This document shows, piece by piece, positions 4,289 to 24,721 of a stretch of DNA of 24,721 nucleotides (positions within the stretch are counted from its first letter, which is position 1; every line of letters starts with the position of its first letter). This DNA is from a virus. The notes beneath the pieces are model-generated. The model saw only the letters and a program-made list of their open reading frames with translations, did no database searches and had not been told where the DNA came from. A program made the position numbers and the translations under genes. Location of the stretch: IMG/VR virus record IMGVR_UViG_3300037119_001151, positions 1 through 24,721 of that record, one strand, 5' to 3'.

Positions 4289-4882
4289 ATGCCGGAAACG
4301 CAGACCCAGCAGGGTACGCAGGGTGACCAGCAGAACACCCAGCAGACCCAGCAGACCCAGCAGGACCAGAGCAAGACCTTCACCCAGGCGGAGGTCGACT
4401 CGCTGATCCTGAAGCGAGCCGAGCGTGTGGCCGCTGACAAGTACAGCGACTACGCCGACCTGAAGACCAAGGCGACCAAGCTGGATGAGATCGAGGCGGC
4501 GAACGCCACCGAGCTCGAGAAGGCAGTCGCCAAGGCGAAGAAGGAAGGCGCGGCGGAGGTGCAGACCTCGGCCAACGAGAAGCTCGCCAAGGCGGAGGCC
4601 CGTGCTCTGGCAGCAGAGGCCAAGTTCCGGAACCCGACGCTCGCCGTCAAGTCGATCGACATGTCCGGGGTGAAGGTCAGCGAGAACGGCGACGTCGACG
4701 CGGAGGCCATCAAGAAGCTCCTCGCCGACTTGGCGAAGGACGAGCCCTACATGGTCGACGACGGCAAGGTGAAGCCCAAGCCGGACGACGCGCAGGGTCG
4801 CGGAGATGGACAGGTCAGCAGAGCCGAAGCCGGCAAAGCTGAAGCAGCAAAGCGGTTCGGCAAGCCTGCCGGGCAGCAGTAG
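4289..4882 (+). CDS. Capsid scaffolding protein
   Basis: Internal scaffold that guides assembly of the capsid shell and is absent from mature heads. The 197-residue protein has a Gln/Thr-rich low-complexity start, then a long charged, Ala/Lys/Glu-rich helix (about residues 30-110) of coiled-coil character. A conserved-looking KFRNPTLAVKSIDMSGV segment follows, and the C-terminus is basic and polar. This composition, and the position between minor head protein and decoration/capsid genes, is typical of siphovirus scaffolds. The ATG at 4289 has GGAG at 4279-4282. No protease signature is visible here or next to it, so scaffold removal would have to occur by exit or by another protease. The 77 bases upstream (4212-4288) show no convincing terminator or promoter. 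Confidence 0.85.
   Translation: MPETQTQQGTQGDQQNTQQTQQTQQDQSKTFTQAEVDSLILKRAERVAADKYSDYADLKTKATKLDEIEAANATELEKAVAKAKKEGAAEVQTSANEKLAKAEARALAAEAKFRNPTLAVKSIDMSGVKVSENGDVDAEAIKKLLADLAKDEPYMVDDGKVKPKPDDAQGRGDGQVSRAEAGKAEAAKRFGKPAGQQ
4328..4368 (+). repeat. Short CAG-rich tandem repeat in scaffold gene
   Basis: Four imperfect copies of a 9-12 base unit built on CAGCAGACC encode a Gln-Gln-Thr run at the N-terminus of the scaffold protein. The reading frame is kept. This looks like slippage-derived low complexity rather than a regulatory site. Confidence 0.7.
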
Positions 4883-19038: not shown

Positions 19039-20154
19039 ATGGCTGAAGCACTGTGGGTCCAGGCGACTGGAGTCGACTACACCGCTGCGGAGGATCGCCG
19101 CCTGATCGGGGCGATGTTCTCTCCAGGCACGATCAACGGGCTGGTCCAGTCCGTCGGCTCTGGGCTGAACATGAGTGTCTCGGCCGGACGCTGTGTCATC
19201 TCGGATGGCGCGGGTGGGGCGTACCTGGCGTACTTCGACGCGGCCACGACGGTGGCTGTCCCTGCGAGCTCGACGCGCAACGTCCACGTCGTCATCGACA
19301 CTGGTACTGGACAGGCCACCATCACCACCAACTCGGTGGGTGTCACGCCGAGCCAGCCGTTCCTCTCACTCGGGTCCGTGGTCGCTGGGGCAGCTTCCAT
19401 CACCTCCGTCAACACGGGTCGGGTGGCTGCCCAGGTGGTCGCTGGTGGCGGTGCAGCCACGTCGATCACCAACGACGTCGCCAACATGAAGTTCCACTAC
19501 CAGGCTCTGGGTAGCGCTCCGGCGTACCTCTGGGGCAGCAACGCCAGCGGAGACGCGTACACATTCTCCGTCGGTGCGGTGTCCGTCGGATCTGCCACCT
19601 TCGCCACCAGCGCTGGTTCGGCCAGCACCGCTGGTTCCGCCACGACCGCTGGTTCCGCCACGACCGCAGGCACCGCGACCAACGCGACCAACGCCGTAGG
19701 CTTCACGACCTTCGGTGCGTCCAACTGGGAGACTAACGGGGTCTACCACTTCAACAACGCCTCCGCCATCCGGCTCGAAGCTCCGTTCCTCACGGGTGGT
19801 GCCTACCCTGGGGTCCTCTGCCGGACGTCGGTGGACGGTGCGCTCGTGGTCTCCTCGTCGTCCCAGCGCTACAAGAAGAACATCGTCGACCTCGCCACGC
19901 CGGTCGAGCAGCTCCGCCAGATCAAGCCACGCAACTTCGAGATGGACACCGAGCACCCACGGGTCGCGCCGGATGAGACCGGTGTCCTCGGTGGGTTCAT
20001 CGCGGAGGAAGTTCTGGAGGTCTTCCCCGAAGGCGCCTTCGTGGTCGACGGGCAGGCGGAGAACGTCAGCGACCGCGCACTCCTCGCAGGCGCCTACAAG
20101 CTGATCGGCGACCTCTACGAGAAGATCGAGGCACTTGAGGCTCGGCTGGCCTGA
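19039..20154 (+). CDS. Tail fibre/tip protein with C-terminal S74 intramolecular chaperone
   Basis: A 371-residue fibre-like protein. The N-terminal part (residues 1 to about 150) resembles actinophage tail-fibre bases, with NGLVQSVGSGLNMSVSAGRCVI and VHVVIDTG. Residues about 190-215 are Ser/Thr/Ala/Gly repeats, perhaps a thin shaft. The C-terminal about 97 residues fit the peptidase S74/intramolecular chaperone auto-processing family: SQRYKKNIVDL, QLRQIKPRNFEMD, GFIAEEVLEVFPE and a final helical AYKLIGDLYEKIEALEARLA. The cleavage Ser would be Ser275 in SSQRYKKN, followed by Gln where Asp is common. This domain would trimerise and then remove itself. ATG 19039 follows GGGAGTAGGGA. The stop overlaps the next start as TGATG. 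Confidence 0.85.
   Translation: MAEALWVQATGVDYTAAEDRRLIGAMFSPGTINGLVQSVGSGLNMSVSAGRCVISDGAGGAYLAYFDAATTVAVPASSTRNVHVVIDTGTGQATITTNSVGVTPSQPFLSLGSVVAGAASITSVNTGRVAAQVVAGGGAATSITNDVANMKFHYQALGSAPAYLWGSNASGDAYTFSVGAVSVGSATFATSAGSASTAGSATTAGSATTAGTATNATNAVGFTTFGASNWETNGVYHFNNASAIRLEAPFLTGGAYPGVLCRTSVDGALVVSSSSQRYKKNIVDLATPVEQLRQIKPRNFEMDTEHPRVAPDETGVLGGFIAEEVLEVFPEGAFVVDGQAENVSDRALLAGAYKLIGDLYEKIEALEARLA
19609..19679 (+). repeat. 18-base tandem repeat in the fibre shaft
   Basis: About four copies of an 18-base unit (two exact: CCGCTGGTTCCGCCACGA) encode a six-residue Ala-Gly-Ser-Ala-Thr-Thr type repeat. It lies between the fibre base and the S74 domain. Confidence 0.7.
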
Positions 20155-22208: not shown

Positions 22209-22577
22209 ATGGCAGGCTTGACCAACGGAGAGTCCCAGGCGACTCTCGACGCGCGCTTCCCGACCACGGGTGGCACCGACCACATCGCGTACTCCGTGAA
22301 CGGCACCTCGGAGTTCGCGGGCCTGGCGCGCACTCCCATCGGTGCGACCGGCTGGTCCGCCGCGACCGCAGCTGACCCCTCGGTGAAGGCGAACGCCAAC
22401 GCCCTGACCTCCGCAGCCGCGAGCTCCGGTGGCACGGTGACGCACTTCGCCATCTACTCGGCTCTCACGGCGGGTACCCAGCGCACGGACTGGACCACCC
22501 TCGCCGCGTCGCGCACCGTCGCCACGGGTGACCAGCTGACCCATGCGGCGTCGGCCATCCAGGTCACGCTGACCTGA
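22209..22577 (+). CDS. Tail-fibre-like protein, small
   Basis: A 122-residue Ala/Thr/Ser-rich protein; ATG 22209 follows TAGGAGA at 22197-22203. The sequence has VTHFAIYSALTAGTQRTDWTTLAA and TGDQLTHAASAIQVTLT at its end. An F-A-I-Y-S/T-A-L-T-x-G-T...W motif followed by G-D-x-L-x-x-A is common in short phage tail-fibre-like proteins of actinophages. It has no signal sequence or membrane span. It begins a new group of fibre-like genes after the membrane cluster. The assignment is based on motif resemblance only. Confidence 0.65.
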   Translation: MAGLTNGESQATLDARFPTTGGTDHIAYSVNGTSEFAGLARTPIGATGWSAATAADPSVKANANALTSAAASSGGTVTHFAIYSALTAGTQRTDWTTLAASRTVATGDQLTHAASAIQVTLT

Positions 22578-22581
22578 TCCC

Positions 22582-23307
22582 GTGGCCCTGTCCTACCTCG
22601 CCAGCTCGACCTTGCAGGCTGGCACGACGTCGTTCTCGATCGGGGCGCCCACGGGTACCGCGATTGGGGACTTGGAGATCATCCACATCTCCAACAAGCT
22701 GGGGTCGAACACCCCGACGACGCCGACGAACTGGACGTTGGTAGGTACGGCAGCAGTCGGCACGGGTGCGGACGGTGCAGGCACTGGTCAACTACGGGTG
22801 ACAGTCTTCGCTCGGGTCTGGGATGTCACCCCTGCGTCGGTCACCGTCGCGGTCCCGTCGGGCAACTCCGGGACGGGCGGGTCCAAGACCTACCGGAAGG
22901 CAGGCGGAGACCCCGACTTCATCGTCAACGCCTCCTTCGGGTCGGACACGACCAGCGGCACTGCGTTCGCCACGACTCAGGATGTTGACCAAGGGTTTGT
23001 AACCGGCGACCAGGTGTTCATCCACGGGTGCACGACCACCAACACGACTCGTTCTGGCGAGGGCGCGACCGTCCCGGGTTGCACCATCGCTGCTGTTACC
23101 GGAATCGAGTCCGGTGGTTCAGCCACCGGCAATGACCAGTACGCCTGGACCTACAGGACCAACGTCACGGCGGGTTCTCAGACCGGACCAGCCACAACGA
23201 GTGCCACCCTGGCAGCCGCCTCGACAGGCGGAGCCGTGGTCGTTCGCATCAGCATCGCAGCTGCTCCGCTACTACAGCCCATCATCGTCATGCCACCGAG
23301 GAGATAA
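22582..23307 (+). CDS. Fibre-like minor tail protein
   Basis: A 241-residue Gly/Thr/Ala/Ser-rich protein using GTG 22582, four bases after the preceding stop; no good ribosome site is visible, so coupling is likely. The N-terminal part (SLQAGTTSFSIG-like, then TGTAIGDLEIIHISNK, TPTNWTLVG, TVFARVWDVTPASVTVAV) resembles the N-terminus of the large protein at 13717 (TTGDIHVIVVSI, PTNYTQL, IYVFYRQATG). This suggests a shared beta domain used in two virion proteins. The end is hydrophobic and basic (LLQPIIVMPPRR). It lacks the fibronectin and LamG-like domains of the larger protein. A tail-fibre or capsid-surface role is inferred from context. Confidence 0.65.
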   Translation: MALSYLASSTLQAGTTSFSIGAPTGTAIGDLEIIHISNKLGSNTPTTPTNWTLVGTAAVGTGADGAGTGQLRVTVFARVWDVTPASVTVAVPSGNSGTGGSKTYRKAGGDPDFIVNASFGSDTTSGTAFATTQDVDQGFVTGDQVFIHGCTTTNTTRSGEGATVPGCTIAAVTGIESGGSATGNDQYAWTYRTNVTAGSQTGPATTSATLAAASTGGAVVVRISIAAAPLLQPIIVMPPRR

Positions 23308-23309
23308 CC

Positions 23310-23747
23310 ATGGCTCGTTTCGTTGCAGGCGGTTTGACCACCGCCGGATCCACCACTCTTCCGGTCGCTGCCCTCGTCGGCAGTGCCTCGGTCTTGGCCC
23401 GCATCCGGGAGATCGGCGTCTTCAACACGACGTCCACAGCGGTAACCCTCAAGCTCTGTCGGCTGTCCACGGCGGGCACTCCCGGTGCGACTCTCACAGC
23501 CGCAGCGATGAACAGCGACCCCGCGACCAACGTGGCCGTGGCCAAGAACACCTACACGTCCACTGCCCCGACGACTACTGATCTCGGCTTCCGCGCTGTC
23601 CTGGGGGCAGCGGTCGGCTCGGGCTTCGTCTGGACCTTCGAGGACTTCGATCTGACGACCCTCGTCGCCGCCAACGCAGGTGTGGGCATCCTCGTGGAGA
23701 ACGGAACCGGTCAGGCACTGCAGGTCTACTTCAAGTGGTACGAGTAG
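23310..23747 (+). CDS. Fibre-like minor structural protein
   Basis: A 145-residue beta-rich protein starting at ATG 23310 with GAGGAG at 23298-23303. It begins MARFVAGGLTTAGSTTLPVAALVG and contains IREIGVFNTTSTAVTLKLCRLSTAGTPGA, a compact-sheet pattern met in short actinophage structural proteins of unassigned role, and ends GVGILVENGTGQALQVYFKWYE. There is no membrane span. The neighbourhood of other fibre-like proteins suggests a tail-tip or fibre component. Confidence 0.68.
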   Translation: MARFVAGGLTTAGSTTLPVAALVGSASVLARIREIGVFNTTSTAVTLKLCRLSTAGTPGATLTAAAMNSDPATNVAVAKNTYTSTAPTTTDLGFRAVLGAAVGSGFVWTFEDFDLTTLVAANAGVGILVENGTGQALQVYFKWYE

Positions 23748-23751
23748 CCAC

Positions 23752-24721
23752 GTGTCTAACCTGATCCGGTACGGTGTACCGCGCTTCTCAGGAGACGCAG
23801 CAGGTCGCGGGGGACGGATCGTCTCCCCGGCAGCTGTCGACGCTGGAGGTGTGCAGTACCCAGCTGACGGAACCGTCGACGCGACATCGTCGGTCACCGG
23901 TGAGGTAACGTCCCTGCTGCTGCCGAGCTCGGGGACGTCTGCCAGCGCAACAACGGTCTCAGGCTCGGCAGCCCTTCTTCTGCCGAGCTCGGGCACTGTC
24001 GCTGGGGCGGCGACAGTCTCGGGCTCGGCAGGGGTTTCTCAGCCCAGCTCCGGCTCGGTTGCAGGAACCAGTGCGGTCTCGGGTTCTGCAGCGGCCAAGC
24101 TAGTCAGCTCCGGCTCGGTTGCAGGAACCAGCTCGGTGAGCGGTTCGGCGATCATCCAGTACCCCGCGTCGGGCACCGTCCCTGCGACGAGTGCGGTGTC
24201 CGGCGCGGCTTCCCTCGCATTGCCGGCCTCCGGCTCTGTCGCTGGAACCAGTGCGGCGTCCGGCGCGGCCATCATCCGCTACCCCGCATCTGGCACTGTT
24301 GCAGGGGTCTCGGCGGTCTCGGGTTCGGCAGGGGCAAAGCTGCCCAGCTCGGGCACCGTCGCGGGCACCTCAGCTGTCTCGGGTGCAGCGATCGTCCAGT
24401 ACCCCGCGTCGGGCACCGTTGCCGCCACTACAGCGGTGTCCGGCGTAGCCATCATCCGCTACCCCGCGTCTGGCACCGTCGCCGCGACCAGCGCTGTTAG
24501 CGGGTCCGCCGGAGTAGGCCAGCCCGCGTCTGGCACCGTCGCCGCGAGCTCGGCTGTCAGCGGCTCGGCCATCATCAGCTCCTCGGCCTCGGGCACGGTC
24601 GTCGCGACCAGCTCGGTGAGCGGTGCCGCAACCGTCCTGACTCCCGCTTCGGGGACCGTCGGAGCGGTCACCACGACGTCAGCCAGCGCCACGGCCCAGC
24701 TCCCCGCTGCGGGAGCCGTAC
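23752..24721 (+). CDS. Repeat-rich tail fibre-like protein (5' part only)
   Basis: Open frame from GTG 23752 to the end of the window, 323 codons with no stop, so the gene continues beyond. After MSNLIRYGVPRFSG and a Gly/Arg patch, there are at least 15 tandem 20-residue repeats with a consensus near YPASGTVAATSAVSGSA plus three variable residues. Each unit splits into two related halves of ten residues, both carrying Ser-Gly. Reading frame is kept throughout and every unit is 60 bases. This pattern suggests a long beta-solenoid or thin fibre shaft; the receptor-binding end would lie outside. The start lacks a clear ribosome site and sits four bases after the previous stop codon, implying coupling. 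No enzyme signature is seen. Confidence 0.8.
   Translation, partial: MSNLIRYGVPRFSGDAAGRGGRIVSPAAVDAGGVQYPADGTVDATSSVTGEVTSLLLPSSGTSASATTVSGSAALLLPSSGTVAGAATVSGSAGVSQPSSGSVAGTSAVSGSAAAKLVSSGSVAGTSSVSGSAIIQYPASGTVPATSAVSGAASLALPASGSVAGTSAASGAAIIRYPASGTVAGVSAVSGSAGAKLPSSGTVAGTSAVSGAAIVQYPASGTVAATTAVSGVAIIRYPASGTVAATSAVSGSAGVGQPASGTVAASSAVSGSAIISSSASGTVVATSSVSGAATVLTPASGTVGAVTTTSASATAQLPAAGAV
23821..24721 (+). repeat. Tandem 60-base coding repeats (15 or more units)
   Basis: Each unit carries a strongly related block encoding P-A/S-S-G-T/S-V at the same place, 60 bases apart, from 23821 to the window end. Copies vary most in the four residues before the Pro (QY, RY, KL, AL, GQ classes). There are no unique spacers between units. 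Confidence 0.9.

Follow-up and report, generated by a model that had tools for sequence, protein, structure and literature searches.

The repeat gene at the end of the window (the whole stretch of DNA analysed, 24721 bases, which is all of record IMGVR_UViG_3300037119_001151) probably encodes the shaft of a virion fibre that is docked by a short terminal peptide, has its array exchanged by recombination and changes its length in unit steps. The window covers part of the genome of an uncultivated actinobacterial siphophage, and its large terminase shares ~60% identity with its counterparts in Mycobacterium phages (Sparky and TChen among them). In the mechanism that we propose, the N-terminal peptide would dock the fibre to the virion, with a 145-aa protein of predicted jelly-roll fold as the most likely site or neighbour of docking, and the 20-residue units would build a regular rod, rich in beta structure and longer or shorter according to their number. 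The array would grow or shrink by one or two units per event and, over longer periods, would be swapped as a whole by recombination for an unrelated one, leaving the docking tag and the gene of the jelly-roll protein in place. The relevant features, in order along the window, are:

22209-22577: Gp80-like gene, 122 aa, matching PF23140 Gp80 ('fiber I' of podophage GP4) at 33 bits against a cut-off of 27
22582..23307, plus strand: upstream gene, 241 aa, body without a detected family
23269..23304, plus strand: C-terminal tag of the 241-aa upstream gene, LLQPIIVMPPRR
23310..23747, plus strand: conserved 145-aa neighbour, a predicted jelly roll and 'hub' candidate
23752..24721, plus strand: putative repeat fibre gene, GTG start, 323 codons present, open at the record end
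23752..23784, plus strand: N-terminal tag (M)SNLIRYGVPR, a motif common to relatives
23815..23829, plus strand: second N-terminal element RIVSP, of the form R-[IV]-[IV]-x-P in many relatives, weaker than the first tag
23860..23922, plus strand: first unit, divergent, 21 codons, PADGTVDATSSVTGEVTSLLL, read directly
23923..24702, plus strand: 13 units of exactly 60 bases each, consensus PASGTVAATSAVSGSAIIQY
24703..24721, plus strand: start of a fifteenth unit, PAAGAV, truncated where the record stops

The repeat gene and its array

The repeat gene is a single open frame that runs from the GTG at 23752 to 24720 and off the record end, and neither the stop codon nor the frameshift on which the original prediction had been staked occurs before that point. 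The start at GTG 23752 is supported by the peptide MSNLIRYGVPR, which stands identically behind an ATG in locus L038 and behind a GTG in L037. Fifteen units had been predicted from 23821 onwards; the count was nearly right, there being 14 full units (one of 21 codons and 13 of exactly 60 bases) and a partial one, and the array is real, but 23821 falls in the N-terminal linker and the units begin at 23860. The 60-base units start at 23923, 23983 and so on to 24643, and the partial unit at 24703.

The predicted regularity was borne out, with a residue autocorrelation of 0.52 at lag 20 against a best value of 0.24 in 2000 shuffles over lags 5-44, but the proposed make-up of the repeat was not. 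Within a unit, the first and second halves share only 2-4 of 10 residues, and the lag-10 autocorrelation (0.227) lies inside the shuffle range, so the repeat is a 20-residue unit and not a pair of alternating decapeptides. A higher-order duplication of four units had also been suggested; the AKL/IIQY (24043/24103) and AKL/IVQY (24283/24343) pairs that prompted it exist, but similarity at a lag of four units reaches only p = 0.065. Adjacent units resemble each other above expectation (p = 0.006), which fits local tandem duplication. Across the 13 units, S3, G4, S13 and A16 are invariant, V6 and G14 occur in 12 of 13, V12 is nearly invariant and positions 17-20 are variable. Agreement between units at codon positions 1, 2 and 3 is 0.60, 0.63 and 0.37, and this agreement at the first two positions with little at the third indicates old copies under protein-level selection and not fresh duplicates. 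Instead of being near-identical, as had been supposed, the copies are 43-75% identical in DNA and 35-80% in protein when the divergent first unit is left out; with such DNA identities, the idea that recombination between them changes fibre length quickly is unsupported.

No family was found for the window repeat protein in Pfam, PHROGs or NCBIfam. A collagen-like fibre is not indicated either, as the unit consensus has a period of 20 and no period-3 pattern of Gly-X-Y triplets, and there was no collagen Pfam hit. A tblastn search of GenBank phages with this protein and those of three relatives found nothing, which is weak evidence given the low-complexity filtering of the query, while the two N-terminal tags gave chance hits only in GenBank phages. 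Searches of IMG/VR with the repeat protein and with two DNA patterns for the unit found no match and, judged by these searches, the window's exact unit is private to the window within IMG/VR. Four loci that came from the DNA pattern (L030, L031, L033 and L034) were rejected as unrelated reading frames with stops.

On the 5' side of the array lie genes for a tape measure (with M23 and SLT domains), fn3 proteins, a Dit-like protein, an S74-chaperone protein and the Gp80-like protein. The gene had been called fibre-like, and it does sit in this tail-gene region, a placement in the tail module that is expected of a virion fibre; its product would be located on the virion. The S74-chaperone fibre gene carries an 18-base tandem repeat of its own (4.7 copies, 19602-19685, GSATTAG-type residues), and the gene at 4289-4882 has three exact copies of ACCCAGCAG at 4337-4363, in a Gln/Thr-rich stretch.

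Probable exchange of arrays and change in unit number

The 145-aa gene has 108 relatives in IMG/VR, and 80 loci were retrieved with its protein. A strongly periodic frame lies at most 7 kb downstream of the 145-aa gene in 60 of these 80, a count that takes in contigs present in duplicate and a handful of calls that are probably false (for example L096 and L101). The relatives' units are 14-24 residues long, mostly 20, and their repeat genes share a design in which the tag M-S-x-L-[IV]-R-Y-x-x-P is followed by a tandem array. The loose form of the tag is present at 39 of 45 N-termini (shuffles: mean 2.3, maximum 8), where start codons were chosen partly with the tag motif in mind, the tagged start being mostly the first or sole alternative. 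The N-terminal segment is conserved among relatives and the rest is variable, as is looked for in a fibre anchor. Some arrays are broken by domain-size segments that are non-repetitive, as judged by sequence alone and with no family assigned. The arrays of L062 and L108 match the repeat part of PHROG phrog_14065 (E = 2e-25 and 1e-27), of unknown function, and through them a similar repeat can be traced to catalogued phage proteins; the window protein itself does not match this family. A second, shorter repeat of ~9-12 residues (RPNSGTTARP, HFDEPTPAG) occurs at the C-termini of the repeat proteins of L016, L023, L084, L089, L095 and L106.

Among phages that are 82-88% identical in the 145-aa gene and carry different array types (L050, L051, L054, L056 and L058), blastn homology ends 4-64 bases past that gene, at the tag. 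Between L084 and L095 it ends 107 bases past the gene, and between the window and its two nearest relatives at the gene's end. Array sequences are usually without detectable relation even where the 145-aa neighbour is 80-90% identical: of the 26 locus pairs whose 145-aa proteins are 80% identical or more, 6 have arrays with a detectable relation when the threshold is set conservatively, at the highest score that any reversed sequence reached. The window array has no detectable relation to the arrays of the two loci nearest to it, which share 80-83% identity with the window in the 145-aa protein; it best matches the array of L097, a distant locus, and does so in register, with z = 8.1 relative to unit-permuted controls. 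With homology that ends at the tag and unrelated arrays beside similar 145-aa genes, replacement of the array by recombination is the simplest reading of these sequences; rapid divergence in place may account for some of the array differences.

Homology breaks at the tags would also be seen if these were recombination boundaries only, that is, short stretches of conserved DNA that guide module exchange and have no binding role. We consider this improbable, because third codon positions in the tag differ while the peptide is kept: among five close relatives, codon identity at positions 1, 2 and 3 is 0.85, 0.94 and 0.40, which indicates that it is the peptide and not the DNA that is preserved. 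Distant phages, too, have the tag peptide in common but share little DNA. We retain docking as the proposed role of the peptide, and note that tag and neighbour might be conserved together either because recombination breaks there or because the two bind.

The number of units does vary among related phages, and it does so in whole 20-residue steps. The large gaps within homologous arrays are of 20 or 40 residues (L050, L056 and L061; L072 with L076), the aligner having broken some of the 20-residue gaps into 3+17 or 13+7, and a few single-residue gaps occur besides. Gaps of 20 or 40 residues are as expected of a structured repeat. They represent some four or five independent length changes, as the comparisons share events. 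The quick change of length that had been foreseen is not seen in the relatives: the repeat proteins of L084 and L106, 75% identical, are equal in length and align without gaps, and L047 and L049, on contigs 99.3% identical, have the same array. Array length thus appears to change in whole units, and slowly. In the literature, we found no paper on tandem repeats of phage fibres with concerted evolution or change in repeat number.

The fold of the proposed shaft and known fibre systems

Run on the single sequence, AlphaFold2 (AF2) folded the window repeat protein into a regular solenoid whose strands recur at 20-residue intervals (mean pLDDT 62, pTM 0.55), and the array model had no match in the PDB (best E 1.9). 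AF2 is known to give repeats solenoid folds that are confident yet unrealistic (PMC11795689), and for that reason the model does not decide the fold. It may be that the Ser/Gly/Ala/Thr-rich repeat is an intrinsically disordered spacer, a flexible tether and not a rod, which would agree with its low-complexity composition and with an AF2 confidence that is low to moderate from a program that tends toward solenoids on repeats (PMC11795689). Yet the period is fixed at 20 residues over 13 exact steps, in-array gaps measure 20 or 40 residues and are not arbitrary, S3, G4, S13 and A16 are invariant with V6 and V12 nearly so, and conservation is found at codon positions 1 and 2 only; we hold disorder to be rather unlikely.

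The rod that we favour could be built from one chain's stacked coils, as a monomeric beta-solenoid adhesin in line with the repeating two-strand coil originally suggested, or as an intertwined trimer. The regular strand pattern of the AF2 model, repeating every 20 residues, would suit a single chain, and phmmer found one weak match of 20-residue period, to the LRR protein 8z5u (E = 4e-4). That match is not robust, since 1 of 300 unit-permuted controls equals or exceeds its score against this single target and other members of the family give no match, and likeness to LRR proteins was rejected; nor is there any PDB fold match with E < 1. Phage fibres are usually trimers, and we regard the monomeric solenoid as doubtful; the shaft may be trimeric.

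Adenovirus and reovirus fibres attach at a base that contains jelly rolls, a point shared with the plan proposed for the window. Their layout, with a triple beta-spiral shaft (PMC4259310), resembles that of the proposed window fibre, in that an N-terminal virus-binding sequence is followed by a shaft of short beta-repeats whose length depends on repeat number. Unlike them, the window protein has no match to any Pfam shaft-repeat family up to E = 0.1, and its units are ~20 residues long and unrelated in sequence between relatives. The adenovirus and reovirus shaft is trimeric, as that of the window may be; no head domain was seen in the window, where the gene is cut.

Modular phage tail fibres and tailspikes have a conserved N-terminal anchor and a variable remainder, and the relatives here are like them in having a conserved N-terminal attachment part, a variable remainder and mosaic exchange. 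Side fibres are mosaic and attached by an N-terminal domain (PMC13243795), but the conserved part here is a peptide of ~11-25 residues and not a domain, and what is exchanged is a repeat array. The fibre system of podophage GP4 (PF23140 Gp80; PDB 8JOU) is represented in the same gene cluster of the window by the GP4-type part at 22209-22577, the protein of which matches PDB 8jou_a weakly. Neither the repeat protein nor the 145-aa protein matches PF23140 or GP4 fibre I, and hhalign with the Gp80-like gene gave a probability of 0.1.

The predicted jelly-roll neighbour and a putative cassette

The 145-aa protein, our candidate docking partner, was modelled by AlphaFold2 with 24 relatives as a confident jelly roll (pLDDT 90.2, pTM 0.85). 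In the PDB the model has weak matches to viral jelly rolls, and in BFVD it matches phage proteins that are uncharacterised. Searches of Pfam, PHROGs and NCBIfam gave no family for the protein, and no relative was found among 50,697 GenBank phages. A close relative of the gene is present in a Nocardioides prophage and, of 342 genomes from the family of that relative, in that one genome only.

The predicted fold weakly resembles capsid jelly rolls, and the protein has a very weak profile match to the capsid decoration protein 9ocb_H (E = 0.53), so that the jelly roll might sit on the capsid and the repeat protein be a head fibre or decoration, not a tail fibre. We think this unlikely, as the genes stand at the end of the tail module, away from the capsid genes, and tail tips, too, commonly contain jelly rolls. 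It counts against the proposed docking that the repeat gene is at least one gene away from the 145-aa gene in 24 of 49 loci with an assigned start, so their adjacency is not obligatory. Iterative HMM searches of the loci with seven other window genes found no relatives and, among the tail genes, only the 145-aa gene was therefore seen to travel with the cassette.

On the other side of the 145-aa gene, the body of the upstream gene varies between phages, and its product ends in an LVMAP-like motif in 23 of 60 loci, compared with 8 of 997 control C-termini (shuffles: mean 0.75, maximum 4); the regular expression was written post hoc from these sequences, so the counts overstate specificity. Examples are IPPILVMAPRR and LPDLVMAPLSYR, beside LLQPIIVMPPRR in the window. 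This tag is present in 21 of 25 loci in which the repeat gene is adjacent and in 2 of 22 in which it is not (Fisher p = 2e-7, inflated by relatedness). In L059, the tagged upstream protein is a laminin-G/ConA-like lectin. The arrangement suggests a cassette of tagged adhesin, jelly roll and tagged shaft.

LVMAP-like ends occur on unrelated upstream proteins in the window and in L039, L048, L059, L060, L068, L071, L074, L079, L084, L095, L106, L018 and others.

We put forward tentatively that uncultivated phages possess an undescribed modular appendage system, in which the jelly-roll protein would be flanked by two otherwise unrelated families with docking peptides at their facing ends (C-terminal and LVMAP-like in the adhesin-like upstream protein, N-terminal and of the form [LI]-[IV]-R-Y-x-x-P in the downstream shaft), adhesins and shafts being freely exchangeable if the tag is kept. 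The layout resembles that of known modular fibres, and what would be new is the cassette of tag, hub and tag, as drawn from sequence statistics. If true, appendages would change by a simple rule, in which only the short tag peptide and the small protein with the jelly roll persist and the rest is replaced, and the tags would make appendage genes recognisable in metagenomic viruses despite bodies without similarity. Differences in unit steps would likewise make shaft length an evolvable, countable trait, and a changed shaft may benefit the phage.

In L041, L062 and L075 the end of the upstream gene holds, by eye, the same repeat type as the locus's own downstream repeat gene, as if units had spread between neighbouring genes. 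Between related phages, neighbouring segments were also seen to change place (positions counted from where the 145-aa gene ends), at 72-77% identity over both pairs: -2039..-1502 in L037 corresponds to +82..+622 in L038, and -2091..-1693 in L050 to +906..+1294 in L051.
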